Assembly: GCA_949297015.1 (NCBI GenBank)
Contig: CASFRF010000041.1
Span: 1-62,087 of the forward strand
DNA: 62,087 nucleotides
Source: an uncultured bacterium
Lineage (GTDB): Bacteria; Verrucomicrobiota; Lentisphaeria; Victivallales; Victivallaceae
Direction: 5' to 3'
This document shows positions 666 through 17,073 of this stretch, piece after piece. The notes under the pieces are model-generated. The model saw only the letters and a program-made list of their open reading frames with translations. It was not told where the DNA came from and searched no databases. Made by a program: the position numbers and the translations under genes. The stretch's first letter is position 1; every line of letters begins with the position of its first letter.

Positions 666-3600
666 ATGAACCGTTGTTCATCCGCATCCGTCCGGCGCCG
701 TCCCGGCCGCCGGTGGCGCCAAACCTTGATCGCTGCGGCCCTGTGCTGCACCGGCCCGTTTCTGGCCGCCACCGAAACCGAAAACCACGGCTTCCGGCTG
801 CTGCCGGCCCCCGGCGCAGTCAACCTCGACGGCAAGATCGACGACTGGGATCTCAGCGGCGGAATCTTCGCCTGCGGCGAACTGGAGCATCTGCGCGACC
901 AGTATTCGCTCTGGCTCCACGGCATGTACGACGCCGACAACCTCTATTTGCTGGCACGCTGGAACGATCCGACGCCGTTGAACAACCCGGAACTGCGCGG
1001 CGGACACGGCTTCAACGGCGACTGCCTTCAGGTCCGGTTCGTGATGTTCCCGGATACCGACCAGGCGACCACCAGCTGGTGGGACTTCTGGCGCGACGCC
1101 TCTGGCGACTCGGTCATCGGCCGCCAGTGGCCGGGCCCGGTCAACGGGGTCCCGAACAATCCGCTGCCGGAGTTTCGTCAAGAAACGACCGGAGCCCGGC
1201 AGGCCTTTGCGGTGAACGCCGACGGCAAAGGCTATGTGCAGGAACTGGTCATCCCTTGGAAGGAGCTCAGTGTGTCGGGAAAACGCCCGGAACCCGGCTC
1301 TCAATTCCGCTTCACCATCGAACCGAACTTCACCGCCGGAGCCTTCGGCCGAATCTCCATCAAGGATATTTTCAGCGACAAAACCGCCGCGCCGGACCGG
1401 ATCTTCACCTTCCGCGCCTACAACGACTGGGGCTTTGCCACGCTGGAAAAGAGCGGCAAGGTCGAGCCGCAACCGGTCCGGGTGGCCGACGGCCGCACCT
1501 TCCCAACCCATCTGGAAAACGGCGCTCCGGTGGTCGACTGGACCGGTCTGATCCGGAACTTTGAATGGCCCGGCATGCGCGAAATCGTCTTCGACATGCC
1601 GTTCCGCGGCTACGTCTCGCTCAACATCTACGACCGGAACGGGAAAATCGTCCGCCATCTGCTCAACGGCGAGCTGCGCGAAGCCGGACGCCAGACCGTC
1701 AAGTGGGATGGTCTCGACGACGCCGTCTACCGCACTCCGGGGCAGCCGCTCCCGCCCGGCGAATACACCTGGAAGGCGCTGTTCCACCCCGGCATCAAAC
1801 TCACCTACCGGGGAGCCGCCGCGATCGGCGGCCGCGCCCCCTGGCAGTCGCGGCCGGATGACTTCTGGCTCGGCGACCACGGAGTCCCCACCGCCGTCCG
1901 GACCGACGGCAAACGGATCTACCTGGCCTGCAACGGCGCCGAGGGCGGCCGCCATCTGGTGGCCACCGACTTTGCCGGAAAACACCTCTGGAGCCTCCAG
2001 AACACCACCGGCGCCGCCGATCCGAACTACATCGCCGTCGGCAACGACACGGTCTATGTGCTCCACCCCAAAAACGACTGGACCAAGGGTAACAACAGCG
2101 GCAGCATCAGCCGGGTCAACGCCGAGACCGGCGGGTACCTCAACTGGCAGGGGAGCAAGTCGCACATTCTGCCGCTGGAGAGTTTGTGGACGGCGGAACT
2201 GCCCGGCTACGATGACTTCACCGGCGTGGCCGCGGGCGGCGGCAAACTGTTCGGCTCCATCGCCCCGGCCCGCTTCTTCCCGAACGACGTCGCCGACTGG
2301 AAGGCGATGATCCGGCTGCTGCAGACCGATCAGCCGCCGGCCCGGGAACTCTACGCGCAGATCGACCCGCGCACCACCGGACGGCTCAAGGACTTTCTGG
2401 CGGGAAAAACCCCGCAGGAGGAGGCCTTCCGCACCTGGAACGGCGGTCCCCGGTTCGACGTCGAAGTCACCCGCGCGCTGAACGGGCTGCTGGACTCGAC
2501 GGAGCTGGTCGAGAAGGCGGAGCAGATGACCGAAGCAGAGCTGGCCCGGGCCAACTTCCGGGAACTCGTCCGGATCTTCGGCGAGGCGCTGCGTCCGTTC
2601 CCCGAAGATCGCGTGGTGGTGCTCGACGGCGCCACCGGCAAGCCGGAACGGGCCTTCGCCGTGCCGCAGCCGGGACCGCTGCACTACGTCAATGATTCGC
2701 TGCTCTATGTGATCTCCGCGGGTCGGCAGGTGCTGGTGCTGAACCCGCAGACCGGAGCGTGCAAACCGGTGGTCACGAACGGCTTCAATCTCCGCGGCGT
2801 CACCACGGATGCGGCCGGGCGCATACTGGTCAGCTGCGGCGCGCCCGCCATGCAGGTGGTGATCTACACGCCCGACGGCAAGGAGGTCGGACGCATCGGC
2901 CGCCCGGGCGGACACCCGCGCATCGGCCGCTGGCAGGCCGACGGCATGATCGACCCGCTGGGGCTGGCGGTCGATCCGCAGAATCAGCTCTGGGTGGCCG
3001 AGGCTTACGAACACCCCAAGCGGGTCAGCGTCTGGAATCTGGAGAACGGCAAACTGATCCGCGACCATCTGGGGCCCACCCACTACGGCGCCAGCGGCGG
3101 CGCGATCAATCCGGTCGATCCGAATCTGATGGTCGGCATCGGCTGCGAATGGCGGCTGGATCCGAAGACCGGCGTGGCCGAATGTCTGGGCGCGTTCGAC
3201 GACACCTATCACCAGTTCGCCACCTTCCGCAAGGGGCCGAACGGTCGGCTCTACCTGTTCACCAACACCATGCGCTACGGCGCCGGCAAGCTGCAGGTCT
3301 GGGAGCGGCGCGGCGACGGGGACTACCGGAAACTCTTCACGCTGGACAACCAGTGCGGCGCCCGCGAGGGCAAGGAGACCCAAACCGAATTCTGGGTCGA
3401 CCGGAACGGCGACGGCGAGCGTCAGGAGCAGGAGCTGGCGGTCTTCGAGGCGCCGCTCTTCCCCGCGGGCAGCAACAGCTGGTCGCTGAACGTGGGCCCG
3501 GATCTGACCATCTACGCGCTGAACACCCGGGACCACCGGCTCTACGCCTTCCCGGTCCGGGAATATCTGGACAACGGAGTCCCGGTGTACGAACCGACGC

Positions 3601-4931
3601 ACTTCAAAAAGATGCCCGAAGCGATGAGCGCCGGAGCGCAGCGCAACTACTACTGTGCCGTGCCCAGCGCCGACAACCGGACCATTCTGACCAATCTGCA
3701 TGTGCCCGACCATCCCGCCGGCGACCTGTGGACCTGCTTCGATCTGGCGACCGGCGAACAGCTCTGGACCTACCCCAATCCGTACTTCCAGGTGCACGGT
3801 TCGCATCGGGCTCCGGCGCCGGATCCCGGACTGTTCCGGGGCGCCTACGGCCCGATCGGCTGCGTGAGCACGCCGGAGGCGGGGGACTTCTGGATCATCA
3901 ACGGCAACCTCGGCGAATGGAACGCCCTGACCGCCGATGGCTTCTACCTGACCCGGATCTTCAACGGCAACGTCTTTGAGTGGAAGTGGCCGGAGGAGGC
4001 GCGGCCGGGGGCCGATCTGACCATGCTGCCTCCGGGCAGCGGCGGCGAGGACTTCGGCGGCTCCGCCACTCTGGCCGATGACGGGAAGATCTATCTTCAG
4101 GCCGGGAAAATGGCGTTGTGGAATGTGGAGCTGGAAAATCTCGATCAGGTCCGGCGGGTGAACGGCTCCGGCAAGCTGGTGCTGACCGAGTCCGATCCGG
4201 CGCTGGCGCGTCAATTCCGGGAACAGGCGCTGCAGAAGCTGGCCGGGACCCGGAAGGTCACGATCAAGCGGGGAACGCCGAACTTCACCGGTCATCTCAA
4301 CGCCGACTTCAAGGGCATGAACATCCTCGACTACCAGAAGAATCGGGAGTCGAAGGTGCGGACCGCGCTGGCGCACGACGGTGAGAATCTCTACCTCGGC
4401 TGGGAGGTCAATGATCCGACTCCGTTCATCAACGGCGCCCGGGATTTCTCCCAGCTGTACGCCACCGGCGACACGGTGGACTTCCAGTTCGGCGCCGATC
4501 CCGACGCCGATCCGGCCCGGACCGAGCCGGTGGCCGGAGATCTCCGGCTGAGCATCGGCAATCTGAACGGGAAACCGACCGCGGTGCTCTACCGGTTCGT
4601 CTCCGAAAAGAAGAATCCGCGGGTCTTCACCTCGGGCGTGGTTCAGGGCTATCAGGTCGATCTGGTGGAACAACTCGACCTGCCGATTGAGCTCCGGAAA
4701 GAGAACAACCGTTACACCGTGGAGGTCAAGATTCCCTTTGCGCTGCTGGGCGTCAAGCCGGGAGCCGGAACCGTCTTCCACGGCGACTTCGGGGCCACCC
4801 ACGCCGATCCGGCCGGGGAGCGCACCAAGCTGCGCACGCACTGGGCCAATCAGCAGACCGGACTGGTCGACGATGTGGTGTTTGAACTTCAGATCACGCC
4901 GAAAAACTGGGGAGAACTCACGTTCGAGTAA
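666..4931 (+). CDS. Secreted multidomain beta-propeller protein A (CBM9-like ends)
   Basis: A 1421-residue exported protein. The ATG at 666 follows AAGGAG by four bases and gives an Arg-rich signal peptide ending near FLAATE (about residue 36); an upstream in-frame ATG at 546 lacks this. Domains read by eye: a CBM9/DOMON-like sandwich at about 45-270 (NLDGKIDDWDL, DADNLYLLARW), a FlgD-like Ig strand set at about 310-375 (NIYDRNGKIVRHLLNG, PPGEYTW), NHL/PQQ-type propeller blades at about 400-1150, and a second CBM9-like sandwich at about 1240-1421 (TGDTVDFQFGADPDADP). A canonical 12-residue EF-hand-like loop, DRNGDGERQEQE, begins at residue 912, and VHGSHRAP carries His1044. No enzymatic family is recognised; carbohydrate binding or polysaccharide processing outside the cell is inference. 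It heads a four-gene run with two full paralogues. Confidence 0.85.
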   Translation: MNRCSSASVRRRPGRRWRQTLIAAALCCTGPFLAATETENHGFRLLPAPGAVNLDGKIDDWDLSGGIFACGELEHLRDQYSLWLHGMYDADNLYLLARWNDPTPLNNPELRGGHGFNGDCLQVRFVMFPDTDQATTSWWDFWRDASGDSVIGRQWPGPVNGVPNNPLPEFRQETTGARQAFAVNADGKGYVQELVIPWKELSVSGKRPEPGSQFRFTIEPNFTAGAFGRISIKDIFSDKTAAPDRIFTFRAYNDWGFATLEKSGKVEPQPVRVADGRTFPTHLENGAPVVDWTGLIRNFEWPGMREIVFDMPFRGYVSLNIYDRNGKIVRHLLNGELREAGRQTVKWDGLDDAVYRTPGQPLPPGEYTWKALFHPGIKLTYRGAAAIGGRAPWQSRPDDFWLGDHGVPTAVRTDGKRIYLACNGAEGGRHLVATDFAGKHLWSLQNTTGAADPNYIAVGNDTVYVLHPKNDWTKGNNSGSISRVNAETGGYLNWQGSKSHILPLESLWTAELPGYDDFTGVAAGGGKLFGSIAPARFFPNDVADWKAMIRLLQTDQPPARELYAQIDPRTTGRLKDFLAGKTPQEEAFRTWNGGPRFDVEVTRALNGLLDSTELVEKAEQMTEAELARANFRELVRIFGEALRPFPEDRVVVLDGATGKPERAFAVPQPGPLHYVNDSLLYVISAGRQVLVLNPQTGACKPVVTNGFNLRGVTTDAAGRILVSCGAPAMQVVIYTPDGKEVGRIGRPGGHPRIGRWQADGMIDPLGLAVDPQNQLWVAEAYEHPKRVSVWNLENGKLIRDHLGPTHYGASGGAINPVDPNLMVGIGCEWRLDPKTGVAECLGAFDDTYHQFATFRKGPNGRLYLFTNTMRYGAGKLQVWERRGDGDYRKLFTLDNQCGAREGKETQTEFWVDRNGDGERQEQELAVFEAPLFPAGSNSWSLNVGPDLTIYALNTRDHRLYAFPVREYLDNGVPVYEPTHFKKMPEAMSAGAQRNYYCAVPSADNRTILTNLHVPDHPAGDLWTCFDLATGEQLWTYPNPYFQVHGSHRAPAPDPGLFRGAYGPIGCVSTPEAGDFWIINGNLGEWNALTADGFYLTRIFNGNVFEWKWPEEARPGADLTMLPPGSGGEDFGGSATLADDGKIYLQAGKMALWNVELENLDQVRRVNGSGKLVLTESDPALARQFREQALQKLAGTRKVTIKRGTPNFTGHLNADFKGMNILDYQKNRESKVRTALAHDGENLYLGWEVNDPTPFINGARDFSQLYATGDTVDFQFGADPDADPARTEPVAGDLRLSIGNLNGKPTAVLYRFVSEKKNPRVFTSGVVQGYQVDLVEQLDLPIELRKENNRYTVEVKIPFALLGVKPGAGTVFHGDFGATHADPAGERTKLRTHWANQQTGLVDDVVFELQITPKNWGELTFE

Positions 4932-4978
4932 TCCCGGTCCGAGAAACCAAACCATTCACCCACAGCAAGGGAGGTAGT

Positions 4979-7900
4979 ATGACCCTGAAACGCCGTTTGG
5001 CCTTAGCCTGCGGGTTCGCGCTGACCACACTGTCGGCGGCGGAATTCGCGCCGGAGGATTTTCTGATCCTCTCCAACGCCCTGTCGCCCGAAGTAAAGAT
5101 GGCGATCCAGGAGGAGGGCAAAAACTATGTGGTCCGGCTGGAAGCCGAAAACCCCTACGCGGCGCTGACCATCCGGCTCGGCGCCGACGCCGGGAAGACC
5201 GCGCTGATCCCGGTCAAGGAGTTCCCCGCGGAGGTCACGCTGACCCCGGAGCAGATCGGCGGCACGAAACCCCTGCGTCTGGCACTGGAGGCCAGCTGGT
5301 TCGACCGCGGAGCCAAACTGCGCCAGCGGGAGATCTTTCTGGCGCCGTCGCTGGGCACCCGGTTGCCGGCCGCGGACGTCTGGCCGGTCTTCGACTACGC
5401 CGCCTACCGCAAGGAGGCCGACGACCGCAAACAGGAGATCCACTTCACGGTGGAGCAGCCGATGTCCGGCAAGCTCTCGGTGGTGATCGAGACGCCGGAG
5501 GGGAAGCGGGTGCGCAATCTGGTCTCCGGCCTGGAGTACGGAGCCGGGAAACAGACCCTGGTCTGGGATGGCCGCGATGAACTCGGCAATCTGGTCGCGC
5601 CGGGGAAATACCGCTTCCGGAGCGCCTCGCATCCCGGCATCGTCCCGACCTTCCGCATGCAGTACGCCAACGGCGATGAGAAGGTCTTCTCGCCCTGGGG
5701 CGCCAACCACGGCACCATGACCGCGCTGGCGGTCAACGACCGCTACGTCTTCGCCGCCGCCTCGATCACCGAGGGCGGCAACGCCATCGTGGCGCTGACC
5801 CCCGAGGGCAAGCTGGTGCGCGGCTACCACCAGGTCGGCGGAGCCGGAATCGAGGAGGTGTTTCTGGCCGCCGATGACAACCGGCTCTATGTGCTGAACG
5901 ACGGCGGCGCCTGGAGCGGACGCGGCAATGAACCGGCGACCACGCTGACCGTTTACGACATCGAATCGGGGAACGTGATTCCGCCGAAGGGCGGCAACGC
6001 CCAGTACTCGATCCTGTACCGGGGCGCGAAAAAGGAGTGGAAACCGGAGGACCGGAGAACCTTCCCGCTGACCGGGGCGGCGCTGGCCGACAGCGTGCTC
6101 TACGTCTCGAACCGGGAGCAGAATCAGGTCATGAAAGTCGATCCGGAGACCGGCAAGGTCACCGGCAATTTCGCGTTGCCCGAACCCGGTCCGCTGGCCT
6201 GGGACGGGCAGAAACTCTACGCCGTCTCCGGCCGGAAGGTCGTGACGCTGGACCGGCAGAACGGCAAAGTCGCCGCGCTCTTCACCCTGCCCTACGCGCC
6301 GCGCGGGCTGTACGTCCGCAATCAGGAGTTTTTCGTCTCCGGCGCGCCGGACTCGACGATCAAGGTCTACGGTCCCGACGGCCGGGCCCGGCGCACGGTG
6401 GGCAAACCCGGCGGCGGCTACGCCGGAACCTGGCAGCCCGAACGGCTGGTGGAGCCCGTGGGCGTGGCGGTGACCCCGGCCGGAGAGCTCTGGGTGGCGG
6501 AAAACCGGCAGAATCCCAAACGGATCAGCCGCTGGAACGCGGCAACCGGAAAGCTGCTCTATGAAAAGGTCGGCTGCCCGGCCTACGGCAGCCCCGGCGG
6601 CGGCGTCGACCCCGCGAACGGGGAGCTCTGGGTGGGACACCGCTGTCTCTGGGACGTCGATTACGAAAAAGGCACCTCCGCCATCCACAGCGTGATGCAG
6701 CTGGAGGGCGGGCATCTCAAGGGAAAGATTCCGGAATGCTTCAACTACCGGTTTGTGCATCAGGACGGCCGGACCTTCCTGCTGGGGCTGGGCAAAGCCG
6801 GCACCATCTCCGAAGTGATGCCCGACGGCAGCGTGCGCGATCTGGCGCTGGTGTCGACCGTGCACCAGCTGTTCTTCGCGCTGAACTGGAAACGGGTTCC
6901 GGTCTTCAACGACTTGGTGGAAAAGACCTTCGACCGGGCGCGTCCGGATCAGAACTACGGCGACCCCCAGTGCCGCTCGGTCGGCGTGCTGTGGGTGGAC
7001 AAGAACGGCAACGGCGATTTCGACGAGGGGGAATTTGAGTTTCTGCCGCCCCACACCGTGGCGCCGGAAAACGGCGGCTGGGGCATGCGGGCCCACGACC
7101 TGACGCTGCATCTGCCCTACCGCAACGAAAAGGGTGAGTTCCAGCTGCTGACGCTGAAGCCGGACGGCTTCAATCAGGTGGGAGCCCCGAACTACTCGTT
7201 CCGGAAGGCGCTGGCCAATGCCGTGCCGATCCGGGAGGAGCTGCCCAGCGGCGTCCGCACGATCACCGAGGCGGTGGTCAACGATTCGCAGGGCCGGGCC
7301 ATCGTCAACTCCGACCCCTTCATGCTCGCCTTCCGGCCCGACGGCACCATCGACTGGCTGCTGGAGAACCGCTGGACCAACGTTCACGGCTCGCACAACG
7401 CGCCGCTGCCGCAACCCGGAGAGATGCAGGGCAACCTCTTCGCGCTGGGCTGCGCGCCGCTGGACGATCAGGGAGACGTGATGGTCTGGATCGGCAATCA
7501 CGGGCGGCTGTTCGTGGTCACCAGCGACGGGCTCTATCTGGATGAGATGTTCTCCGACTGCCGGGTGGCCGAAGTGGTCGGACCGGGGCTGATCGGCGGC
7601 GAACCCTTCGGCGGCAACTTCGAGTACGACCGCAAGCATCGCCGGTATCTGCTGACCGGCGGCACCAGCGGCTACCGGATCTACACGCTGGCCGGACTGG
7701 ATCAGGTCAAACGCGGCCAGGGGGAATTCACCGTCACGCCGGAGATGATTGCGGCGGCAGAACGGCGCACCCAACGGGCGGCCGAGAGCGAGGGCGCCAA
7801 AGTCGCGTCGGTCTCCCGGGTGCCCGACGGCAAGATCAATTTCGATCAGCTTCCGATTTCGGCCAACTGGTCGAGCTCCAACTGGGAGATCCGGGCCAAG

Positions 7901-8476
7901 GCGGCGTTCGACAGCCGGAACCTCTATCTGGAGTATCTGGTGACCGACCTCTCGCCGTGGGTGAACAACGGCAAGGACTGGACCCGGCTGTTCAAGACCG
8001 GCGACGCGGTGGATTTCCAGCTCGGAACCGATCCGAACGCACCGGCGGCGCGCGACGGCGCGGCTCCGGGGGACCTGCGGCTGTCGATCGCGCCGTATCA
8101 GGGGGGGAATCTGGCGGTGCTCTACCGCTACCGGCTGACCGATCAGACCGGCGCGAATCCGGTGGAGTTCGCCAGTCCCTGGCGCAGCGAAAAGGTGGAT
8201 GACGTCAAACAGCTGAAATCGGCCCAGATCGAGGTTCAGCGCTTCGACTGGGGCTACCGGGTGCGGGCGACCGTTCCGCTGGCGGAACTGGGTCTGACCG
8301 ACCCGGCGGGCAAGAGTCTGCGCGGCGACTTCGGCGTGATCTACGGCGATCGCGACGGGACGATCAACCTGTCGCGCCGCTACTGGTCGAATCAGGCCAC
8401 CGGGCTGGTCAACGACGTCCCCGGCGAAACCATGCTCGCCCCGAAATTCTGGGGCACCTTGAACTTCGGAGAGTGA
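4979..8476 (+). CDS. Secreted multidomain beta-propeller protein B
   Basis: 1165 residues. AAGGGAGG at 4967-4974 fixes the ATG at 4979. The N-terminus MTLKRRLALACGFALTTLSA is a signal peptide, cleaved near SAAEF. Unlike its neighbours it has a short unrecognised sandwich at about 25-150 in place of the first CBM9-like domain. This is followed by a FlgD-like Ig segment (PMSGKLSVVIETPEGKRVRN), propeller blades, an EF-hand-like loop DKNGNGDFDEGE at residue 674, VHGSHNAP with His803, and a C-terminal CBM9-like domain (WTRLFKTGDAVDFQLGTDP). The order and spacing of the last three match proteins A and D. It lies 47 bases after A and four bases before C, so the run is almost certainly one operon. 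Function unknown; export is well supported. Confidence 0.85.
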   Translation: MTLKRRLALACGFALTTLSAAEFAPEDFLILSNALSPEVKMAIQEEGKNYVVRLEAENPYAALTIRLGADAGKTALIPVKEFPAEVTLTPEQIGGTKPLRLALEASWFDRGAKLRQREIFLAPSLGTRLPAADVWPVFDYAAYRKEADDRKQEIHFTVEQPMSGKLSVVIETPEGKRVRNLVSGLEYGAGKQTLVWDGRDELGNLVAPGKYRFRSASHPGIVPTFRMQYANGDEKVFSPWGANHGTMTALAVNDRYVFAAASITEGGNAIVALTPEGKLVRGYHQVGGAGIEEVFLAADDNRLYVLNDGGAWSGRGNEPATTLTVYDIESGNVIPPKGGNAQYSILYRGAKKEWKPEDRRTFPLTGAALADSVLYVSNREQNQVMKVDPETGKVTGNFALPEPGPLAWDGQKLYAVSGRKVVTLDRQNGKVAALFTLPYAPRGLYVRNQEFFVSGAPDSTIKVYGPDGRARRTVGKPGGGYAGTWQPERLVEPVGVAVTPAGELWVAENRQNPKRISRWNAATGKLLYEKVGCPAYGSPGGGVDPANGELWVGHRCLWDVDYEKGTSAIHSVMQLEGGHLKGKIPECFNYRFVHQDGRTFLLGLGKAGTISEVMPDGSVRDLALVSTVHQLFFALNWKRVPVFNDLVEKTFDRARPDQNYGDPQCRSVGVLWVDKNGNGDFDEGEFEFLPPHTVAPENGGWGMRAHDLTLHLPYRNEKGEFQLLTLKPDGFNQVGAPNYSFRKALANAVPIREELPSGVRTITEAVVNDSQGRAIVNSDPFMLAFRPDGTIDWLLENRWTNVHGSHNAPLPQPGEMQGNLFALGCAPLDDQGDVMVWIGNHGRLFVVTSDGLYLDEMFSDCRVAEVVGPGLIGGEPFGGNFEYDRKHRRYLLTGGTSGYRIYTLAGLDQVKRGQGEFTVTPEMIAAAERRTQRAAESEGAKVASVSRVPDGKINFDQLPISANWSSSNWEIRAKAAFDSRNLYLEYLVTDLSPWVNNGKDWTRLFKTGDAVDFQLGTDPNAPAARDGAAPGDLRLSIAPYQGGNLAVLYRYRLTDQTGANPVEFASPWRSEKVDDVKQLKSAQIEVQRFDWGYRVRATVPLAELGLTDPAGKSLRGDFGVIYGDRDGTINLSRRYWSNQATGLVNDVPGETMLAPKFWGTLNFGE

Positions 8477-8480
8477 AATC

Positions 8481-10193
8481 ATGGGCAAAAAAGAACTTCT
8501 GACGCTGGCGCTGCTCGCCTCCGGCGCCCTGAACTGGGGTGCCGCTTTGCAGCTGGAAAGCATCCTCGGCAATTCGGGCGAACCGAACCGGCCGGTCAAA
8601 TTCGGCGACACCACCAACCTGCGCAACGTCGGCATCGGCACGGTGTACGACGCCGAACGGGGGCTGCTCTTTGAGCGGGTCGGGCGCAAGCAGCTGAACG
8701 CCTATACCCTGGATGGCCGGCTCTACGCCACCTACGTTCTGCCGGAAAGCGCCTCGCATCTGGATGCGATGGTCCGGGCCGGCGATTATCTGGTCATGCT
8801 GCTCCAGAATCGGCTGTACCGGCTCAAGCTCGGCAGCGCCGAGGGAGCCGCGGCGGAGCCGATTCCGGGAGAGCTGAAGGAGCCGGTGGCGCTTTCAGCC
8901 TCGGCCCGCGACGGCAAACTCGCGGTGTTGACCAAGCCCGGCAAGCTCTTTCTGCTCGATCCGGCCTCCGGCAAGACCGAACCGTTCGGGGATCTGGGGC
9001 GTGAGATCTGGTGCAGCGGGCTCGACTTCGACGACCGGGGCGACCTCTATGTGATGTTCGACCGCAGCGCCCACCGGGTGGAGAACGGCAAACTCCTGCA
9101 AAACGAACTCTGGCCCCGCCGGTACATCGGCGATCGCGAGGGAGGAGCCGACCGGGCGCGCTTTCTGGACGGAGCCTGGCTGGGCGGCGCCTGGCACGGC
9201 ACGGTCAAGCGTTTCAACCGCGAATTTGAACCGGCGCCGGGGGTGGTGCTCGGTGGCGGCTCCGGCCACTTCATCGGGTACGTCAGCTGCAACTACGACG
9301 CCGAGAACAGTCCCGGCATCGCGCTGGTCAAGCCCGGATTGTTCGCCATCAGCGGCATGAATGGCGTCATTCAGCTGGCCGAATACCAGCCGCAGCTCAA
9401 GCGGCTCAAGCTGCTGCGGCGGATCGGCGCCTTTCCGGACGGCCAAACGCTGGCCATCGACAGTTCCGGCCGGGTGCTGGCCAGGCAGTTCATCTGGAAC
9501 CCCGGGCGCGACGCCCAGTCCCCCGCCGACGGCAGCGTGGTCTTTTCGGGCACCGGTCCGGCGGCCTACTTCGACGCCGACACCGTGCTCTACCCCTGCA
9601 ACATCTACGGCGGGTTCGGGCTGGCCCTGGGCAAGCTCGACGACCGGGAGCTGGTCTGCGGCAACGCCGGAGCGCTCAAACTGCCGGAGAACCTGGTCGG
9701 GCTGGCCCTTTACCGCGCCCGCGAGGACGGTACCGGCGAGTGGAATCTGCTCGCGCTCGGAGCCGACGGCAAAGCCACGCTGAGCGAAGTGGCCCAGGAC
9801 CGCAACAGCACCTGGCGCAAAGACCTCGGCGAAGTGAAACTGATCACCGCCCGGCCGGTATCCCGCTATACCGGGCTGACCGGAGCCGGTCCTCAGAAAC
9901 TCTACGCCGCCGGCGACGGCCGGATCATCGAATTCACCCGGGCCGGCAACAACTGGCAGGAGGTCCGGCGCTTCGGAAACGATCTGGGTCCGGAGCTGAA
10001 AATCGCCTGGAGCAACGGCAAACTGGCGGTCTCGGATCCCGCCAAACAGCGGATTCGAGTCCTCGATGAAAAAGGCAATCAGCTGGCTTCGACCCGGCTG
10101 GAAACCCCGGGCAACCTCGCCTTCAACGGAACCACGCTGGTGGTCCACGATCCGGCGAATCAGCGGTTGCTCAAATTGAAACTGGAGGAGTAG
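8481..10193 (+). CDS. Secreted beta-propeller protein C (propeller only)
   Basis: 570 residues, starting at an ATG four bases after the previous stop; GGAGAG at 8468-8473, inside the end of gene B, is the ribosome binding site. MGKKELLTLALLASGALNWG looks like a signal peptide. The rest is repetitive beta-strand sequence of propeller type (RNVGIGTVYDAERGLLF, QTLAIDSSGRVLARQF, KRIRVLDEKGN-like strands near the end). It has no Ig segment, EF-hand-like loop, HGSH motif or terminal CBM9-like domain, so it is the stripped-down member of the cluster. Its place between two full-length relatives, with one- and four-base gaps, suggests a partner made in step with them. No enzyme motif was found. Confidence 0.8.
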   Translation: MGKKELLTLALLASGALNWGAALQLESILGNSGEPNRPVKFGDTTNLRNVGIGTVYDAERGLLFERVGRKQLNAYTLDGRLYATYVLPESASHLDAMVRAGDYLVMLLQNRLYRLKLGSAEGAAAEPIPGELKEPVALSASARDGKLAVLTKPGKLFLLDPASGKTEPFGDLGREIWCSGLDFDDRGDLYVMFDRSAHRVENGKLLQNELWPRRYIGDREGGADRARFLDGAWLGGAWHGTVKRFNREFEPAPGVVLGGGSGHFIGYVSCNYDAENSPGIALVKPGLFAISGMNGVIQLAEYQPQLKRLKLLRRIGAFPDGQTLAIDSSGRVLARQFIWNPGRDAQSPADGSVVFSGTGPAAYFDADTVLYPCNIYGGFGLALGKLDDRELVCGNAGALKLPENLVGLALYRAREDGTGEWNLLALGADGKATLSEVAQDRNSTWRKDLGEVKLITARPVSRYTGLTGAGPQKLYAAGDGRIIEFTRAGNNWQEVRRFGNDLGPELKIAWSNGKLAVSDPAKQRIRVLDEKGNQLASTRLETPGNLAFNGTTLVVHDPANQRLLKLKLEE

Positions 10194-10194
10194 C

Positions 10195-13100
10195 ATGAAG
10201 TTTTCCCGGATTTTCGCCGTCGGCTGTTCGCTGTTGGCGCTGGGCGCGGCGGCGGCGGAGAATATGATCGGCCGTCAGACCCAGAACGAAGGTTTTTTCG
10301 CGGTCCCGGTCAAAGGCCCGGTGACCATTGACGGGGATCTTTCCGAGTGGGATCTCTCGGGCCGGATCTGGAGTTTTGCTGACACCGCGGTGCGGGACCG
10401 GTTTTCGGTCAAGACCGCCGCGATGTGGGATCCGGACAACCTCTATTTGTCCTTTTACTGGAAGGATCCCATGCCGCTCAACAGCAAGATCGATCCGGAT
10501 TTTGAACCGGGTCGCGGCTGGCTGGCCGACGCGGTCCAGTTCCGGATCATCGCCGATGAAAAGGTGGCCTGGGCCACCGCCTGGAGTCAAGGCAAAGACC
10601 GCCCGGCGCTGGAGGTCTCCTACTGGCTGGATCCGGCCAGTGAATTGAAGGGTACCGACATGGTGGTCTACTGCGACAAACCCGGCGTCACCAAATTCAA
10701 GGACGGGGTGGAGTCGGCCTATCGCGAACTCCCCGACGGCTCCGGCTTCGTCCATGAGCTGAAGCTGCCCTGGAAGGTCATCTACCGCAAACCGAAACAA
10801 CTGCAGGCCGGGGACTCGCTCAAGTGCGGGCTGGAGTTCCTGTGGGGCGACCCCACCGGCATGACCTGGCCGATTCACCGTTACGCCGACAACATGGCTC
10901 CGGGCAAGACCTCGCGCGAATTTTTCTGGAGCGCCAAGGACAGCTGGGGCACGCTGACGCTGCGCGCGGATTCGCTCCCGGAGGAGCGGCGCTACGTCTC
11001 CGACGAGGCGAAAATCGCCGGTACCATTCCGGTCACGGCGGAGATTCCGGCCGACGCCTCGCGCTTCACGCTGGTGATCGAGGACGAACAGGGCAACCGG
11101 ATCCGCAATCTGGCCGGCGATCTGCCGCCCGCGGAGTACGCCACCGGCGAAGCCCGGAACGGCAAACTCCCCATTCAGGTGCTCTGGGACGGCCTGACCG
11201 AGGACGGCAAACTGGCCGCGCCCGGTACCTACCGGGTCCGCGGCTTGACCCATCAGGGGCTGGGCGCCGAATACGAGGGGTGTTTCTACAATCCGGGGAC
11301 TCCGCCCTGGGCCACGCCCGACGGCACCGGCGCCTGGGGCTCGGATCACTCGCGGCCCGAGCTGGCGGAGCGCTCCGGCGAGCTGGTGATTCTGGCCTGC
11401 CGGGTGGTCGAAGGCGGCTACGGCATCTGGGCGATGGGGCCGGACGGCAAAAAACGCTGGAGCGAAAAGCGCGCCGCCGATCAGCTGACCGCCAACGACC
11501 GCTACGTCTTCTTCGTGCCGAACTTCTGGGATGCCAAGGAGCCGCTGCTGATCCGGCTGGATGCGAAGACCGGCGCCTATTCGCCGTTCACCAACGACCT
11601 GCCCTTCCCGCTGCCGCTGCGGGTGGTGCTCAAGGAGGAGAAAGCCCCGGCGGTCCGGGCGCTGGCCGCCTCGCCCGACGATCTCTATGTGCTGCTGGAG
11701 GATGACCGGCTGCTGCGGCTCGATCCGGAATCCGGCGCGCTGCGCGAGACGCGCAAGCTGCAGGCCGACCAGATCACGCCGGAGCTCCCCGGCACCACGG
11801 CCACGCCGACCACGCCGCTGGCCTGGCACGATGGCGGACTCTGGTTCTTCCGCGACGGGAAGCTCCGGCGTCACGATCTGAAAAGCGGCGCGGAAAAAGT
11901 TCTGGAGTTGACCCCGGCCCCGGAACGGCCCGGCGCCCTGGCGCTGGACCGGAACGGGAATCCGGCGGTGGCCGACCACGGCAAGGATCTGCAGATCAAG
12001 GTCTACGGTCCGGACGGCAAGCTGCGCTGCACCGTCGGTCGGCGCGGCGGCCGGGCGTTGCAGGGCAAGTTCCAGTCCGACGGTCTGCGTGAAGTGATCG
12101 ACCTGGCCTTTGCGCCCGACGGCCGGCTGTGGGTGACCGAGGGCTCGGACTACCCGCGCCGGGTCTCGGTCTGGAATCCCGACGGCAGCTGGGCGCGCGA
12201 CTACATCGGCAACACCGGCTACTCCGGGACCGGCAGTTTCCTGCACGATCAGGATCCGACGCTGGCCTATGTCGGCCCCAATCAGCTCAAGCTCGACCGC
12301 CAGGCCGGAACCTGGCAGATGGACGAAGTGCTGTGGAATCCGCCCGCCTCGGCGGAGCCGACCTATCGGCTCTCGACCAGCGATCACGGCCAGGGGCACA
12401 TCTTCCGCAGCTCCGCCTCCGGGCAGGAGCACGAGTACTACTTCGTCCCGCCCTACTGGGACTGGATGGGGTCAGTCATTCTGATGAAGCGCGCCGACGG
12501 CTGGAAACCGGTGGCGGCGCTGACCTCCGTCGGGCGGCTGGCCGGAACGCTGCGGCCGGACGGCTCGCAACTGATTCCGAATCGCGCAGAATTCGACCGG
12601 TTCAACGGCTATGACGGCTTGATCTGGAACGATCTCAACGCCGACGGCACCGTGCAGCTCGAGGAGTGCGAAATCATCCCGGCCCTCAAGCCGAACACCG
12701 ACCGTGAGCGCGGCGTAGCCTCGATTCCGCTGGCGGGCGGCTGGGGGCAGCGGATGGATCCGGCGGATCTCTCGTTCTACGGCACCGACCGCCATCAGCG
12801 GCGGCTCTGGAAGATCACGCCCGTGGGCTTCGCTCCGGACGGGGCGCCGCGCTTCAGCCGGGATTCGATCCGGCAGATCTCCGAACTCGCGGCGGACGAA
12901 GCGGTGCCGGTGCCGGGGGAGGACACGATCCTGACCTTCGCGGGCATCGACAACGAAACCTATGTGGCCGGACTGGATAAGAAGACCGGCGCGCTGCGCT
13001 GGCGTTACCGCAGTCCCTATCATCAGGTCCACGGTTCGCACCGGGCCACCATGCCGCGTCCGGGGCTGCTGATCGGCCCGCTGAAGATCACCGGCGTGAT

Positions 13101-14169
13101 CGACCGCTGCGGCGAAGGCGGAAACGTCTTCATGATGCGCGGCAATCTGGGGCAGGATTTCTATCTGACCACCGACGGGCTCTACGTCGGCGCCATGTTC
13201 CAGGACGGGCGGCTGCCGGGGACCTCGCTGCCGCCCACCGAAGAGCAGCTGCGGGGCATGCCCATGGAGCTGTTCAGTCAGGGCAGCGAACCGTTCAACG
13301 GCTGGTGCGGCCGTCAGAGCGACGGGGTGGTCCGGATGACCTGCGGCATTCCGGGTCAGGCGGCGATGATGATGACGATCAAAGGGTTGGAGAATATCCG
13401 GCGCTTCAACGCTCCGGCGCTCACCGTCAGTCAGGCCGATCTGATCAAGGCCGATCAGGCCAACGCCGCGCGCCGGGCTGCCGGGACCAGGGTCGAACCG
13501 ATCCGGATCACCCGGGTGGAAGCGGCGCCGGACTGGTCGCAGATCCCGGCACTGCGCATCGCCCGGACCGGGCAGCCGGTGGAGGGCAGCTGCCAGCTGG
13601 CCTATACGCCGCAGGATCTCTACTGCCGGTTCACGGTGCAGGATCCCTCGCCCTGGAAGAACCACGGCAAGGAGTGGACCCGGCTGTTCAAGACCGGTGA
13701 TGCGGTCGATCTGCAGCTGTCGGCCACGGCCAACGATCAGCGGCAGGCCCGGGCGGGTGACTTCCGGCTTCTGGTGGCGCCGTTCGGAGAGCAGCCGCTG
13801 GCGGTGATGATGGAGCGGGTGGCGCCGGGCGCCGCCGCCGGCGAGAAGGTGCGCTACCAGTCGCCGGTGGGCGTGGTGGAGTTCGACCGGGTGCGGCGGC
13901 TGACCGCCCCCGAGATCAAGGTCGAAACCCGGGATCAGGCGTACACCGTCACACTGCGGATTCCGTGGCGGGAGCTGGGGATCACCCCCGAGCCGGGGCT
14001 GAAGCTGCGCGGCGACGTGGGCTTCATCCTCTCCGATCCCAACGGCGAGTACAACACGGCGCGCGTCTACTACGCGAATGCGGACACCAATCTGGTCAGC
14101 GACATGCCGCTGGAGGCGGAACTCTATCCGGATCGCTGGACCACCGTGGAGCTGGCTCCGGCCCAATAG
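10195..14169 (+). CDS. Secreted multidomain beta-propeller protein D (CBM9-like ends)
   Basis: 1324 residues. The ATG lies one base after the previous stop, with GGAGGAG just before it. MKFSRIFAVGCSLLALGAAAA is a signal peptide. The architecture copies protein A: an N-terminal CBM9/DOMON-like domain (PVTIDGDLSEWDLSGR, DPDNLYLSFYWKDPMPLN), a FlgD-like segment (FTLVIEDEQGNRIRNLAGDL), propeller blades with an NHL-like stretch (APDGRLWVTEGSDYPRR), an EF-hand-like loop DLNADGTVQLEE at residue 813, VHGSHRAT with His946, and a C-terminal domain with WTRLFKTGDAVDLQL. The similarity to A and B along the whole length marks a tandem duplication old enough for extensive divergence. A strong terminator follows within 60 bases, so this is the last gene of the operon. 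Confidence 0.85.
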   Translation: MKFSRIFAVGCSLLALGAAAAENMIGRQTQNEGFFAVPVKGPVTIDGDLSEWDLSGRIWSFADTAVRDRFSVKTAAMWDPDNLYLSFYWKDPMPLNSKIDPDFEPGRGWLADAVQFRIIADEKVAWATAWSQGKDRPALEVSYWLDPASELKGTDMVVYCDKPGVTKFKDGVESAYRELPDGSGFVHELKLPWKVIYRKPKQLQAGDSLKCGLEFLWGDPTGMTWPIHRYADNMAPGKTSREFFWSAKDSWGTLTLRADSLPEERRYVSDEAKIAGTIPVTAEIPADASRFTLVIEDEQGNRIRNLAGDLPPAEYATGEARNGKLPIQVLWDGLTEDGKLAAPGTYRVRGLTHQGLGAEYEGCFYNPGTPPWATPDGTGAWGSDHSRPELAERSGELVILACRVVEGGYGIWAMGPDGKKRWSEKRAADQLTANDRYVFFVPNFWDAKEPLLIRLDAKTGAYSPFTNDLPFPLPLRVVLKEEKAPAVRALAASPDDLYVLLEDDRLLRLDPESGALRETRKLQADQITPELPGTTATPTTPLAWHDGGLWFFRDGKLRRHDLKSGAEKVLELTPAPERPGALALDRNGNPAVADHGKDLQIKVYGPDGKLRCTVGRRGGRALQGKFQSDGLREVIDLAFAPDGRLWVTEGSDYPRRVSVWNPDGSWARDYIGNTGYSGTGSFLHDQDPTLAYVGPNQLKLDRQAGTWQMDEVLWNPPASAEPTYRLSTSDHGQGHIFRSSASGQEHEYYFVPPYWDWMGSVILMKRADGWKPVAALTSVGRLAGTLRPDGSQLIPNRAEFDRFNGYDGLIWNDLNADGTVQLEECEIIPALKPNTDRERGVASIPLAGGWGQRMDPADLSFYGTDRHQRRLWKITPVGFAPDGAPRFSRDSIRQISELAADEAVPVPGEDTILTFAGIDNETYVAGLDKKTGALRWRYRSPYHQVHGSHRATMPRPGLLIGPLKITGVIDRCGEGGNVFMMRGNLGQDFYLTTDGLYVGAMFQDGRLPGTSLPPTEEQLRGMPMELFSQGSEPFNGWCGRQSDGVVRMTCGIPGQAAMMMTIKGLENIRRFNAPALTVSQADLIKADQANAARRAAGTRVEPIRITRVEAAPDWSQIPALRIARTGQPVEGSCQLAYTPQDLYCRFTVQDPSPWKNHGKEWTRLFKTGDAVDLQLSATANDQRQARAGDFRLLVAPFGEQPLAVMMERVAPGAAAGEKVRYQSPVGVVEFDRVRRLTAPEIKVETRDQAYTVTLRIPWRELGITPEPGLKLRGDVGFILSDPNGEYNTARVYYANADTNLVSDMPLEAELYPDRWTTVELAPAQ

Positions 14170-14190
14170 CCGCGTCCTGACTTCACCCCG

Positions 14191-14224
14191 GGCCCCGGCG
14201 GAGTTGATTCCGCCGGGGCCTTTT
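14191..14224 (+). terminator. Intrinsic terminator of the four-gene propeller operon
   Basis: A perfect 12-base-pair stem (14191-14202 with 14209-14220), six-base loop GTTGAT, followed by TTTT at 14221-14224. The T-run touches the stop codon of the convergent AraC gene, so the two transcription units end back to back. Confidence 0.9.
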
Positions 14225-15054
14225 CATTGACCCTCGGCGTCGCGGTAGGCCCGCGGCGAGACCCCGCAGTCGCGCCGGAAACAGCGGGAAAAGTGCAGCG
14301 GATCCCGGAAGCCGCAGTGCTGCGCCACCTCCTTGATCGTGAGATTCCGCCGCCGCAGCAGCGTCCGGGCCAGCGCCATGCGCTTCTGCTGCAGATAACG
14401 CATCGGCGGCAATCCGTAGTACTGCCGGAACACCGCGATGAAACGCGGGATCGACAGCGCCGCCCGCCGGGCCGCCCCGGCCAGCGTCGGCGCCCCGGCG
14501 ATCTCGCCGACCAGAAACCGCTCCGCCCGCCGGATCGGCTCCGGAATCTCCGGATCCGCGCCGCGGATCTGACGCATCACCTCGTAGACCAGCAGATTCA
14601 GCCACTGCTCCAGCGCGTATTCGTCCGGCTCCCGGCGGGCGTGCAGTTCGTCGTGCAGCAGCCGCCAGTACCGCCCGACCAGCGCCTCCAGTCCGCCGCC
14701 GCCCAGCGGCCGGTCCAGAATCAGCCGGTGCTGGGCGACAATCCGGTCAAAGGCCCGCCCCCGCACCCGCAGCCAGGAGTGATCCCACCCCTGCTCCGGG
14801 TGGCCGTAGCAGTAAACGCGGTCGCGCCCCCAGATCATCAACTCTCCCGCCGCCGCCGACATCCGGTCCGGAGTCCCCGCCCGGGCCGCGGAGTGGAAGA
14901 ACATCAGCAGATACTCCCCCGGGTGCGCCGGATAGGAGATCAAGCCGGGGGCCATGCGCTCGTGGATGCCCAGCGCCGGAATCGCCAGCCGTTCCGGTTC
15001 CTCCGGTACCGCCCCGTAATAGAACAAACTCCGCTCAGCAATCATAAGATCCAT
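14224..15054 (-). CDS. AraC-family transcriptional regulator
   Basis: A 276-residue AraC/XylS regulator. The N-terminal half is the cupin-like effector domain (GIHERMAPGLISYPAHPGEY). The C-terminal third has both helix-turn-helices: TLAGAARRAALSIPRF for the first, LTIKEVAQHCGFRDPLHFSR for the second, then the usual GVSPRAYR end. Start choice: a minus-strand promoter at 15080-15108 predicts transcription from about 15073, leaving ATG 15054 or ATG 15045 as candidates; neither has a strong ribosome binding site. It is divergent from the dehydrogenase/TIM-barrel operon at 15185 and shares a promoter region with it, so it probably controls that sugar pathway; the inducer is unknown. Confidence 0.88.
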   Translation of the reverse strand: MDLMIAERSLFYYGAVPEEPERLAIPALGIHERMAPGLISYPAHPGEYLLMFFHSAARAGTPDRMSAAAGELMIWGRDRVYCYGHPEQGWDHSWLRVRGRAFDRIVAQHRLILDRPLGGGGLEALVGRYWRLLHDELHARREPDEYALEQWLNLLVYEVMRQIRGADPEIPEPIRRAERFLVGEIAGAPTLAGAARRAALSIPRFIAVFRQYYGLPPMRYLQQKRMALARTLLRRRNLTIKEVAQHCGFRDPLHFSRCFRRDCGVSPRAYRDAEGQ

Positions 15055-15079
15055 ATTTTCGATAATTTCCAACCTGTAT

Positions 15080-15108
15080 AATATATTGACAGAAATCATT
15101 TTTTGCAA
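15080..15108 (-). promoter_or_regulatory. Sigma70-type promoter for the AraC gene
   Basis: Read on the minus strand: TTGCAA at 15108-15103, 17-base spacer, TATATT at 15085-15080. It overlaps the opposing promoter almost completely, so polymerase can occupy only one of the two. Confidence 0.6.
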
Positions 15109-15114
15109 TACAAT
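15086..15114 (+). promoter_or_regulatory. Sigma70 promoter for the MDR dehydrogenase operon
   Basis: A consensus TTGACA at 15086-15091, exactly 17 bases, then TACAAT at 15109-15114. Predicted transcription starts near 15121, giving a leader of about 64 bases before the ATG at 15185. It is among the best promoter matches found in the window. Confidence 0.8.
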
Positions 15115-15184
15115 ATGCCCAGATATCCGAACCGGCCACCGGGTCGGCGGTCGGCACGATTCAACAGAGGAGAGAAGTATTATT

Positions 15185-16177
15185 ATGGAAAAGCGTCTTG
15201 TCTTTACCGGTCAGGATCAGATTCTCCTGGAGTCATTCACGCCGCCGGAACTCCGGCCCGGCGAACTGCGGCTGCGCACGCTGGTCACGCTGATCAGCTC
15301 GGGCACCGAATGCATTGTCCTGCATCGCCGGTTCGACGCCGGAACCCACTGGGACAACTGGGTGAAGTACCCCTTCTACCCCGGCTACGCCGCGGTCTGC
15401 GAAGTCATCGCCTGCGGCCCGGAAACCAGCCGCTTCCAGGTCGGCGACCGGGTGGTCTGCCGCGCCGGACACGCCTCGGTGCAGACCCAGCCTGAAGCGA
15501 ACTGCTTCCCGGCCCCGAAGGAGCTGGATCCGCGACAGGCGGCGTGGTTTGCGCTGGCCAAAATCGCCTCGATGGCGCTGACCGGAACCGGGAATCTCTT
15601 CGGCCGCAACGTGGCGATCCTCGGCGCCGGTCCGATCGGCCAGATGGCCGCGCGCTGGGTCGGGGCCGCGGGCGCGGGACGTCTGTTCGTGGTCGATCCG
15701 GTCGCCGGGCGGCTGGAGCTGATCCGGCGCGGTGTCGACGCCGAAACGCTGGCGCTGAAGAGCTCCGACGCGCCGGAGGAGATCGCCCGCAGGATTGGAG
15801 ATCCCGGCATCGACGTGGTGATCGACACCACCGGCAACGCGGCGGTGTTTTCGGACGCCCTGCGCCTCGTGCGCCGTTTCGGGCGGGTGGTGATCCTCGG
15901 CGACACCGGCTCTCCGGCCCGGCAACACCTCAGCAGTGACGTGATGACCAAAGGCATCCGGATCACCGCCACCCACGACGGCCATGAGACGCCGGAGTGG
16001 AATTCGGCCAAGGCGATCGACATCTGGTTCCGCTTCATCGCCGACGGCCGGATCCGGCTGGACGGACTCAACACCCACAATTTCCAACCCGAAGCGTATG
16101 ACAACGCCTATGCCGCCGCCTCCGATCCGGGAGCCGGGGCGATGGGCATCACCTTTGACTGGAGGAATCAGCAATGA
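15185..16177 (+). CDS. MDR-family (zinc-type alcohol dehydrogenase-like) oxidoreductase
   Basis: 330 residues of the medium-chain dehydrogenase/reductase superfamily. The ATG at 15185 follows AGAGGAGA by 11 bases. The N-terminal GroES-like domain has PGYAAVCEV and GDRVVCRAGHA; the nucleotide-binding domain has VAILGAGPIGQMAARW and an acidic residue after the next strand (VVDP), suggesting NAD(H). In place of the usual catalytic Cys-containing GxCGTD it has ISSGTEC, so whether it binds catalytic zinc is unclear. Its stop overlaps the next start by four bases, so it is coupled to a xylose-isomerase-like TIM barrel. Together with the divergent AraC regulator this looks like a sugar or polyol oxidation pathway; the substrate cannot be told from sequence. 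Confidence 0.85.
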   Translation: MEKRLVFTGQDQILLESFTPPELRPGELRLRTLVTLISSGTECIVLHRRFDAGTHWDNWVKYPFYPGYAAVCEVIACGPETSRFQVGDRVVCRAGHASVQTQPEANCFPAPKELDPRQAAWFALAKIASMALTGTGNLFGRNVAILGAGPIGQMAARWVGAAGAGRLFVVDPVAGRLELIRRGVDAETLALKSSDAPEEIARRIGDPGIDVVIDTTGNAAVFSDALRLVRRFGRVVILGDTGSPARQHLSSDVMTKGIRITATHDGHETPEWNSAKAIDIWFRFIADGRIRLDGLNTHNFQPEAYDNAYAAASDPGAGAMGITFDWRNQQ

Positions 16178-16929
16178 AGTACCAATTCAGTGCCGCGAAC
16201 TGGTGTTTCCGGCGTCCCGACGTTCCGCTCGACGACTACTACGCCGGACTGGCCGAGGCCGGTTGCGACGCCGTGGAAATGGCGCCGCTGGCGGACCTGC
16301 CCGCGATCCGGCGGGCCGGGCTGACACTGTTGAATCAGAGCGGGCCGGGCATGGTCGAGGGCATGAACAACCCGGCCAACCGGGAGCGACTGAGCTCCGA
16401 GCTGCGCCGGGCCATCGAACAGGCGGCCGACGCCGGGGTTCCCCAGGTGATTGTGTTCAGCGGGAACCGCTTCGGCGAGAGCGATGCGCAGGGGTATGAG
16501 AACTGCCGGGCCGGTTATTCCGAACTGCTGCCGTTCGCCGAACGGCATGGCGTGACGCTGGTTCTGGAGATGCTCAACCCGTTCGACCACCCGGGCTATC
16601 AGGCCGACCACTCCGCCTTCGGGTTCCGGCTGGCGCGGGAGTTCAACTCGCCGTACTTCAAGGTGCTGTACGACGTCTACCACATGTTCCGGCAGCAGCA
16701 GGATATTCTGGCCGATTTCGCCGCGAACATGGAGCTGATCGCCCATCTGCACCTGGCGGGAGCGCCCCGGCGCGATTTCCCCGGGCCGGAACAGGAGATT
16801 CCCTACCCGGAGATCATCGCCGCGGCCCGCCGCGCCGGGTACACCGGTTATCTCGGCATGGAGTTCGTCTGTGCGCAAGAGCCGCTGCGGCAGCTGAAAG
16901 AGTCGGTGGCGCTGTTCCGGAACTACTGA
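16174..16929 (+). CDS. Sugar phosphate isomerase/epimerase (hydroxypyruvate isomerase-like TIM barrel)
   Basis: 251 residues, starting at the ATG of an ATGA overlap with the dehydrogenase gene and preceded by GGAGG. The fold is the AP-endonuclease-2/xylose-isomerase-like TIM barrel. Visible metal-site strands are LVLEMLNPFDHPGY (Glu, as in hydroxypyruvate isomerase), KVLYDVYHMF (Asp and His), IAHLHLAG (His) and YLGMEFV (Glu). The layout is close to hydroxypyruvate isomerase (Hyi) or D-tagatose/D-psicose 3-epimerases; the NPFDHPGY stretch favours the Hyi-like group. It probably isomerises the product of the preceding dehydrogenase or its precursor. The precise substrate is not determined. Confidence 0.82.
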   Translation: MKYQFSAANWCFRRPDVPLDDYYAGLAEAGCDAVEMAPLADLPAIRRAGLTLLNQSGPGMVEGMNNPANRERLSSELRRAIEQAADAGVPQVIVFSGNRFGESDAQGYENCRAGYSELLPFAERHGVTLVLEMLNPFDHPGYQADHSAFGFRLAREFNSPYFKVLYDVYHMFRQQQDILADFAANMELIAHLHLAGAPRRDFPGPEQEIPYPEIIAAARRAGYTGYLGMEFVCAQEPLRQLKESVALFRNY

Positions 16930-16955
16930 TCGCGGAGCCACGGCAGCTGCGCATC

Positions 16956-16978
16956 AACCGGCCGCTTGGTTCTTTTTT
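16956..16978 (+). terminator. Probable weak intrinsic terminator
   Basis: AACCGG at 16956-16961 pairs with TTGGTT at 16966-16971 (two G-U pairs), a four-base loop, then CTTTTTT. It lies 27 bases after the stop and before the next promoter. The short stem makes it uncertain. Confidence 0.42.
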
Positions 16979-16999
16979 GGAATATTTTCAAATTCCGAA

Positions 17000-17027
17000 T
17001 TGACATTTGGCGGAACCGGTACATAAT
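17000..17027 (+). promoter_or_regulatory. Sigma70 promoter for the glycosidase/channel operon
   Basis: TTGACA at 17000-17005, 16 bases, CATAAT at 17022-17027. Transcription from about 17034 would give a leader of about 40 bases before ATG 17074. Confidence 0.65.
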
Positions 17028-17073
17028 ATAGTGGGAGTTTTGCCGAGGGAACACGCAAGGTCAAGGAGCGAAG

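Follow-up and report, generated by a model that had tools for sequence, protein, structure and literature searches.

The window analyzed here, a stretch of 62,087 nucleotides, is one entire contig (G000:C41) of a 2.2-Mb Lentisphaeria genome that is 83% complete. Four genes, A through D, span positions 666 to 14169, and the initial annotation described them as tightly packed. Our analysis confirms this arrangement: all four reading frames are open and intact, and the gaps between them are exactly 47 (A/B), 4 (B/C), and 1 (C/D) bases.

666 to 4931, + strand: gene A, 1421 aa; signal-peptide-like N terminus, N-terminal CBM9-like domain, FlgD-Ig domain, propellers, EF-hand-like loop, HGSH motif, C-terminal CBM9-like domain
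4979 to 8476, + strand: gene B, 1165 aa; N-terminal domain of its own type, FlgD-Ig domain, propellers, EF-hand-like loop, HGSH motif, C-terminal CBM9-like domain; its subfamily always adjoins C
8481 to 10193, + strand: gene C, 570 aa; propeller only
10195 to 14169, + strand: gene D, 1324 aa; domain plan as in A; its subfamily is the most widespread
14190 to 14221, + strand: intrinsic terminator at the operon end; 14-pair GC-rich stem with 11 G-C pairs, followed by a T-run

Good purine-rich ribosome-binding sites precede the ATG codons of all four genes. The stem at 14190 to 14221 is the sole outlier among the predicted terminators, whose total count matches that of shuffled sequences. We looked for a sigma-70-like promoter for the operon and found none, and long antisense open reading frames over A to D were rejected as high-GC shadows. 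All four proteins have a basic n-region and a hydrophobic h-region at their N termini, so the earlier assignment of four signal peptides stands at the level of a simple heuristic. Judged from sequence, A to D look exported and operonic. On one side of the operon (positions 2 to 373) is the end of a gene whose product resembles the C terminus of a DUF1559-type pseudopilin, without a Pfam or NCBIfam match. On the other side (positions 14224 to 19842), a minus-strand AraC regulator gene is divergent from genes for a zinc dehydrogenase, a xylose-isomerase-like TIM barrel, and a protein of 922 aa whose sole match, a weak one, is to an alpha-L-rhamnosidase C-domain. These genes probably constitute a small sugar-catabolism unit that adjoins the operon and is organized on separate units from it.

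A, B, and D had been assigned one shared domain plan and C a propeller alone. The description of C is borne out. The shared plan holds for the FlgD-Ig domain, the propellers, the EF-hand-like loop, the HGSH motif, and the C-terminal CBM9-like domain, but not for the N terminus, which is CBM9-like in A and D and of a different type in B. The domains and motifs are located as follows.

1614 to 1778, + strand: FlgD-Ig domain of A, residues 317 to 371; PF13860, 29.7 bits against a cutoff of 27
5444 to 5620, + strand: FlgD-Ig domain of B, residues 156 to 214; PF13860, 30.8 bits
11005 to 11238, + strand: FlgD-Ig domain of D, residues 271 to 348; PF13860, 26.2 bits, slightly below the cutoff of 27
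3393 to 3434, + strand: EF-hand-like loop of A, W910 to E923
6992 to 7033, + strand: EF-hand-like loop of B, W672 to E685
12625 to 12666, + strand: EF-hand-like loop of D, W811 to E824
3795 to 3806, + strand: HGSH motif of A, residues 1044 to 1047
7385 to 7396, + strand: HGSH motif of B, residues 803 to 806; in 15/15 B-clade proteins
13030 to 13041, + strand: HGSH motif of D, residues 946 to 949; located on a long loop in the structure prediction
4332 to 4919, + strand: C-terminal CBM9-like domain of A, by alignment; Pfam CBM9_1, 17.1 bits, below the cutoff
7865 to 8461, + strand: C-terminal CBM9-like domain of B, by alignment
13558 to 14148, + strand: C-terminal CBM9-like domain of D, by alignment
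10396 to 10965, + strand: N-terminal CBM9-like domain of D, residues 68 to 257; PF06452, 25.6 bits against a cutoff of 23.4
9192 to 9278, + strand: conserved WHGT...PGVVLGGGSGHFIG stretch of C, residues 238 to 266; invariant positions among 15 homologs

The C-terminal CBM9-like domain can be aligned across A, B, and D, a CBM9_1 match is present in 19 of 27 relatives, and A contains an NHL match above the Pfam cutoff. The W, D, N, and E of the EF-hand-like loop are invariant in the alignment of all 17 genomic paralogs, and the loop may bind calcium. HGSH is retained in every B protein (15/15) and in 26 of 28 D proteins. Within the B clade, the motif belongs to a dense set of conserved polar residues: H803, H806, N840, H841, R843, D850, D855, E856, D860, R862, and E875.

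To place the operon in its genome, we resolved a search with A by gene calls, which identified 17 members of the core family, amounting to 3.2% of the assembly. Fourteen of these paralogs lie outside the operon; four of them (C4, C39, C23b, and C84) show no clear signal peptide at their N termini and may have miscalled 5' ends, and C56 is truncated by the contig end. A, B, and D are indeed related, as proposed earlier, but "three paralogs" understates the case, as they are part of this 17-member family and share only 27 to 29% identity with one another. These identities and their separation into different clades led us to reject a recent tandem duplication; A, B, and D belong to three old subfamilies, each of which is present in other genomes too. 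A second B-C-D cassette, without A, is located on contig C34, with 62% (B), 51% (C), and 60% (D) identity to its counterparts in the window, and it holds the only other copy of C in this genome. We also observed that the paralogs C84 and C50 (L029, 4099 to 9291, and L030, 14517 to 19691) encode proteins of ~1725 aa with an extra C-terminal domain that is absent in A, B, and D.

Beyond this genome, the family is distributed unevenly. A full-length relative was found in none of 77 other genomes of the same taxonomic family, where the full-length profile A1 gives only short, mostly CBM9-like matches; about 19 genomes from other families of the class carry full-length relatives. A GTDB contig search with A alone returned no matches. 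A scan of GTDB r220 with the D group revealed relatives in Lentisphaerota, Planctomycetota, and Verrucomicrobiota, in one Prolixibacteraceae MAG, and in one Armatimonadota MAG, so that the D subfamily extends to Planctomycetota, Bacteroidota, and Armatimonadota. Copy number is lowest, at one per genome, in G085, G316, and G364, and G104, G147, and G148 each give over a dozen matches; a single gene may yield several of these matches. Two core genes, L025 3 to 3971 and L106 13860 to 17996, form a related pair, and one of the scanned relatives has an N-terminal match to a BNR/YCF48-like propeller; the N terminus of C56 reads alike. Of 388 genomes sampled from the phylum, 12 contain relatives of C, two of them weak, and C relatives also occur in Planctomycetota (L099, L100, and L116) and Verrucomicrobiota (L112). 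The grouping is thus not confined to a single genome, as both the relatives and the B-C pair occur in others.

Gene C reveals the conserved unit. The 19 C genes reduce to 17 after removal of duplicate extractions; of these, one runs off its contig, which leaves 16 informative loci. With gene calling trained on family genes, the immediate upstream same-strand neighbor of C is a core-family gene in 16/16 loci, one of these partners being recognized by its CBM9-like tail only. Many B-C pairs overlap by exactly 4 bases (ATGA). Fifteen C-linked genes group as one clade (SH-aLRT of 100) in a tree built from 78 core domains; the branch of the sixteenth C-linked row, L163_1, is very long, and its C neighbor is weak. 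B and C distances are correlated (r = 0.95, inflated by near-identical copies; Mantel 0/5000; rank correlation of 0.68). At two of the loci, from two genomes of one genus, B-C is followed by proteins with near-identical starts (L154, 11966 to 13654, + strand; L155, 7163 to 8851, - strand), the former matching DUF4407; this protein might be a third partner of the pair in these genomes.

The B-C pair may also have moved between lineages. In G264, a genome from a different class of the phylum, there is a B-C pair (L165, 3930 to 7862, - strand, listed with L152, 6303 to 11682, + strand) that is 60% (B) and 48% (C) identical to that of the window, as close as the second copy within the window's own genome (62% and 51%). 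Together with the gap in the window's own taxonomic family, this closeness suggests horizontal movement of B-C. The other core gene is C84-like in G264 and A-like in G336, indicating that the subfamilies combine freely and that B-C alone is constant.

These patterns bear on the initial proposal that the four proteins form a fixed-stoichiometry extracellular assembly, A-B-C-D. The near-overlapping genes with their single terminator speak for such an assembly, and so does the occurrence of B-C-D on one strand in the window, on contig C34, and in the planctomycete locus L099. However, the order A-B-C-D is seen in the window only, most C loci have no D downstream, A and D types exist without B-C, and three genomes contain B-C as their sole core genes. 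D is mostly found without B-C, at times beside GH130 and esterase genes. Even where the genes co-occur, their order varies: D is convergent with B-C in L112, and in L100 and L116 a regulator-pseudopilin-B-C unit is divergent from D-esterase-GH130. We therefore consider a four-subunit assembly very improbable. The order of genes recurs elsewhere as B-C and, weakly, as B-C-D, but not as the full four-gene set. The initial annotation was right in its direction, undescribed proteins of glycan or surface handling, and wrong in its unit: what is conserved is B-C, and A and D are optional relatives.

We evaluated the genomic surroundings of the family by comparing genes within two genes of a member (near) with genes four or more genes away (far; n = 123 each), at loci chosen via the family itself. 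GDSL esterases account for 13/123 near genes versus at most 1/123 far genes (Fisher p = 0.001, taking one), and GntR regulators for 11/123 versus at most 1/123 (p = 0.005, taking one). GH130 genes are located next to D or close by in L100, L105, L116, and L118, and individual members adjoin genes for GH35, GH2, GH16, GH42, and a SASA esterase, in agreement with the polysaccharide- or surface-handling direction proposed earlier. Prepilin-like proteins are encoded beside propellers in L100, L116, L160, and L162; the excess of pseudopilins near the family is weak (9 versus 3 of 123). In this tally, the SusC/SusD pair, the mark of a Bacteroidota-style PUL, is absent from the 25 commonest neighbor families. 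The propellers and Ig domains might alternatively build or decorate the cell envelope as surface-layer, matrix, or adhesion proteins, with the carbohydrate neighbors being incidental. The propeller profile does resemble archaeal surface-layer and YncE proteins, and the B-C pairs of L152, L154, and L155 have no adjacent carbohydrate genes and sit beside housekeeping genes. This explanation nevertheless seems quite unlikely, given the enrichment of esterases and regulators, the many divergent copies that come with regulators of their own, which fit substrate-specific use better, and the lack of any visible anchoring motif.

Structure prediction with AlphaFold2 yielded a confident model for D residues 262 to 1324 (27 sequences; pLDDT of 88.8, pTM of 0.86) and a weaker one for C (5 sequences; pLDDT of 74.7, pTM of 0.68). 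Both models show double-propeller-type folds. In the model of D, as read from its DSSP string, HGSH falls within a long loop spanning model residues 682 to 698, and the EF loop is at 550 to 563. Foldseek matched D and C to double propellers, namely WD40 processome and axoneme proteins and the sensors BT4663/BT4673, with TM scores of about 0.5 or below, which gives a fold class and not a function. No close solved structure was found for the A to D family, and a literature search found no description of these proteins or of the B-C pair.

In the explanation that we favor, and to which we give roughly even chances, A to D are four exported glycan-handling proteins, with B and C as a dedicated pair and A and D as relatives that widen its range. 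B and C would work together, presumably in physical contact as a complex, with the periplasm or the cell surface as their site of action. B would use its Ig and CBM9-like domains to hold the substrate, most plausibly a glycan, and its second propeller would present a conserved polar site made up of HGSH with N840, H841, R843, D855, and E856, which might serve in binding or in cleaving. C would contribute a second double-propeller unit, and A and D, as relatives of B, would broaden the range of glycans bound or cleaved. In favor of this explanation are the strict B-C linkage, the parallel divergence of B and C, the three genomes with B-C alone, the enrichment of esterases and regulators, the GH and SASA neighbors, the CBM9_1 matches among relatives, and the retention of HGSH; against it are the B-C pairs of L152, L154, and L155 that lack adjacent carbohydrate genes and the failure of the C-terminal CBM9-like profile to reach solved CBM9 structures (E of 0.4).

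A sharper form of this glycan-handling explanation holds that B and D, and also A, are a new propeller-type family of polysaccharide lyases or hydrolases, with the active site at HGSH of the second propeller and C as an accessory or second catalytic subunit. The dense polar residues of the B clade (H803 to E875) and the esterase and GH neighbors are in its favor. It is still unlikely: consistent with the earlier reading that no enzyme family is recognizable, neither Pfam nor NCBIfam names one for A to D, and the best 60 of 180 matches of the A3 profile include no solved lyase or hydrolase (PL11, PL22, PL24, PL25, GH33, and GH74), nor do the 44 profile matches for C include solved members of these families. 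HGSH is, moreover, missing in many "other" paralogs (5/32), so not all members can use it. The boldest version makes B-C a two-protein, calcium-dependent machine that cleaves polysaccharides and represents a new enzyme family, the active site being in the second propeller, around HGSH. The pair would be traded as a unit within the PVC group and would have given rise, in some genomes, to over a dozen substrate-specific relatives; we regard this version as unlikely.

Lentisphaerota, Verrucomicrobiota, and Planctomycetota degrade complex polysaccharides, yet a large part of the machinery they export lacks annotation. A family that occupies 3% of a genome and has a strictly linked partner conserved between phyla offers a concrete target, one pair with one conserved site. 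If it proves active, such a family would shed light on glycan handling by these bacteria.

Several known systems share parts with these proteins. A, B, and D have in common with FlgD, the flagellar hook cap, an Ig domain of 55 to 80 residues (PF13860) that matches FlgD structures (E of 1.7e-9), but the remainder is unrelated; equivalog scores of about 18 to 25 fall far below the cutoff of 230, and we rejected their identification as flagellar hook assembly proteins. The profile matches the NHL structures of TRIM71, Thin, and PknD (E of 1e-29), as does that of C. Unlike these NHL/YncE/PQQ-type propellers, the proteins here have two propellers per chain combined with Ig and CBM9-like domains, and their TM score to any solved structure is about 0.5 or less. 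CBM family 9 (PF06452), marked by a conserved Trp pair with which it binds the ends of sugars, is matched above the cutoff by the N terminus of D and below it by the C terminus of A, and the C-terminal domain profile reaches the CBM9 of Xyn10A (1i82) only at an E of 0.41. The Bacteroides periplasmic sensors BT4663/BT4673 are likewise double seven-bladed propellers and sense glycans, but their TM scores are about 0.2 to 0.3, and their kinase and membrane domain are absent from the proteins here. Lastly, the prepilin-like genes beside several family loci recall the planctomycete "fishing-rod" uptake, a hypothesis in which pilin-like fibers catch intact polysaccharides and carry them to the periplasm (PMC5394234; PMC12078418). 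This fiber model, itself hypothetical, offers a setting in which such proteins might act.
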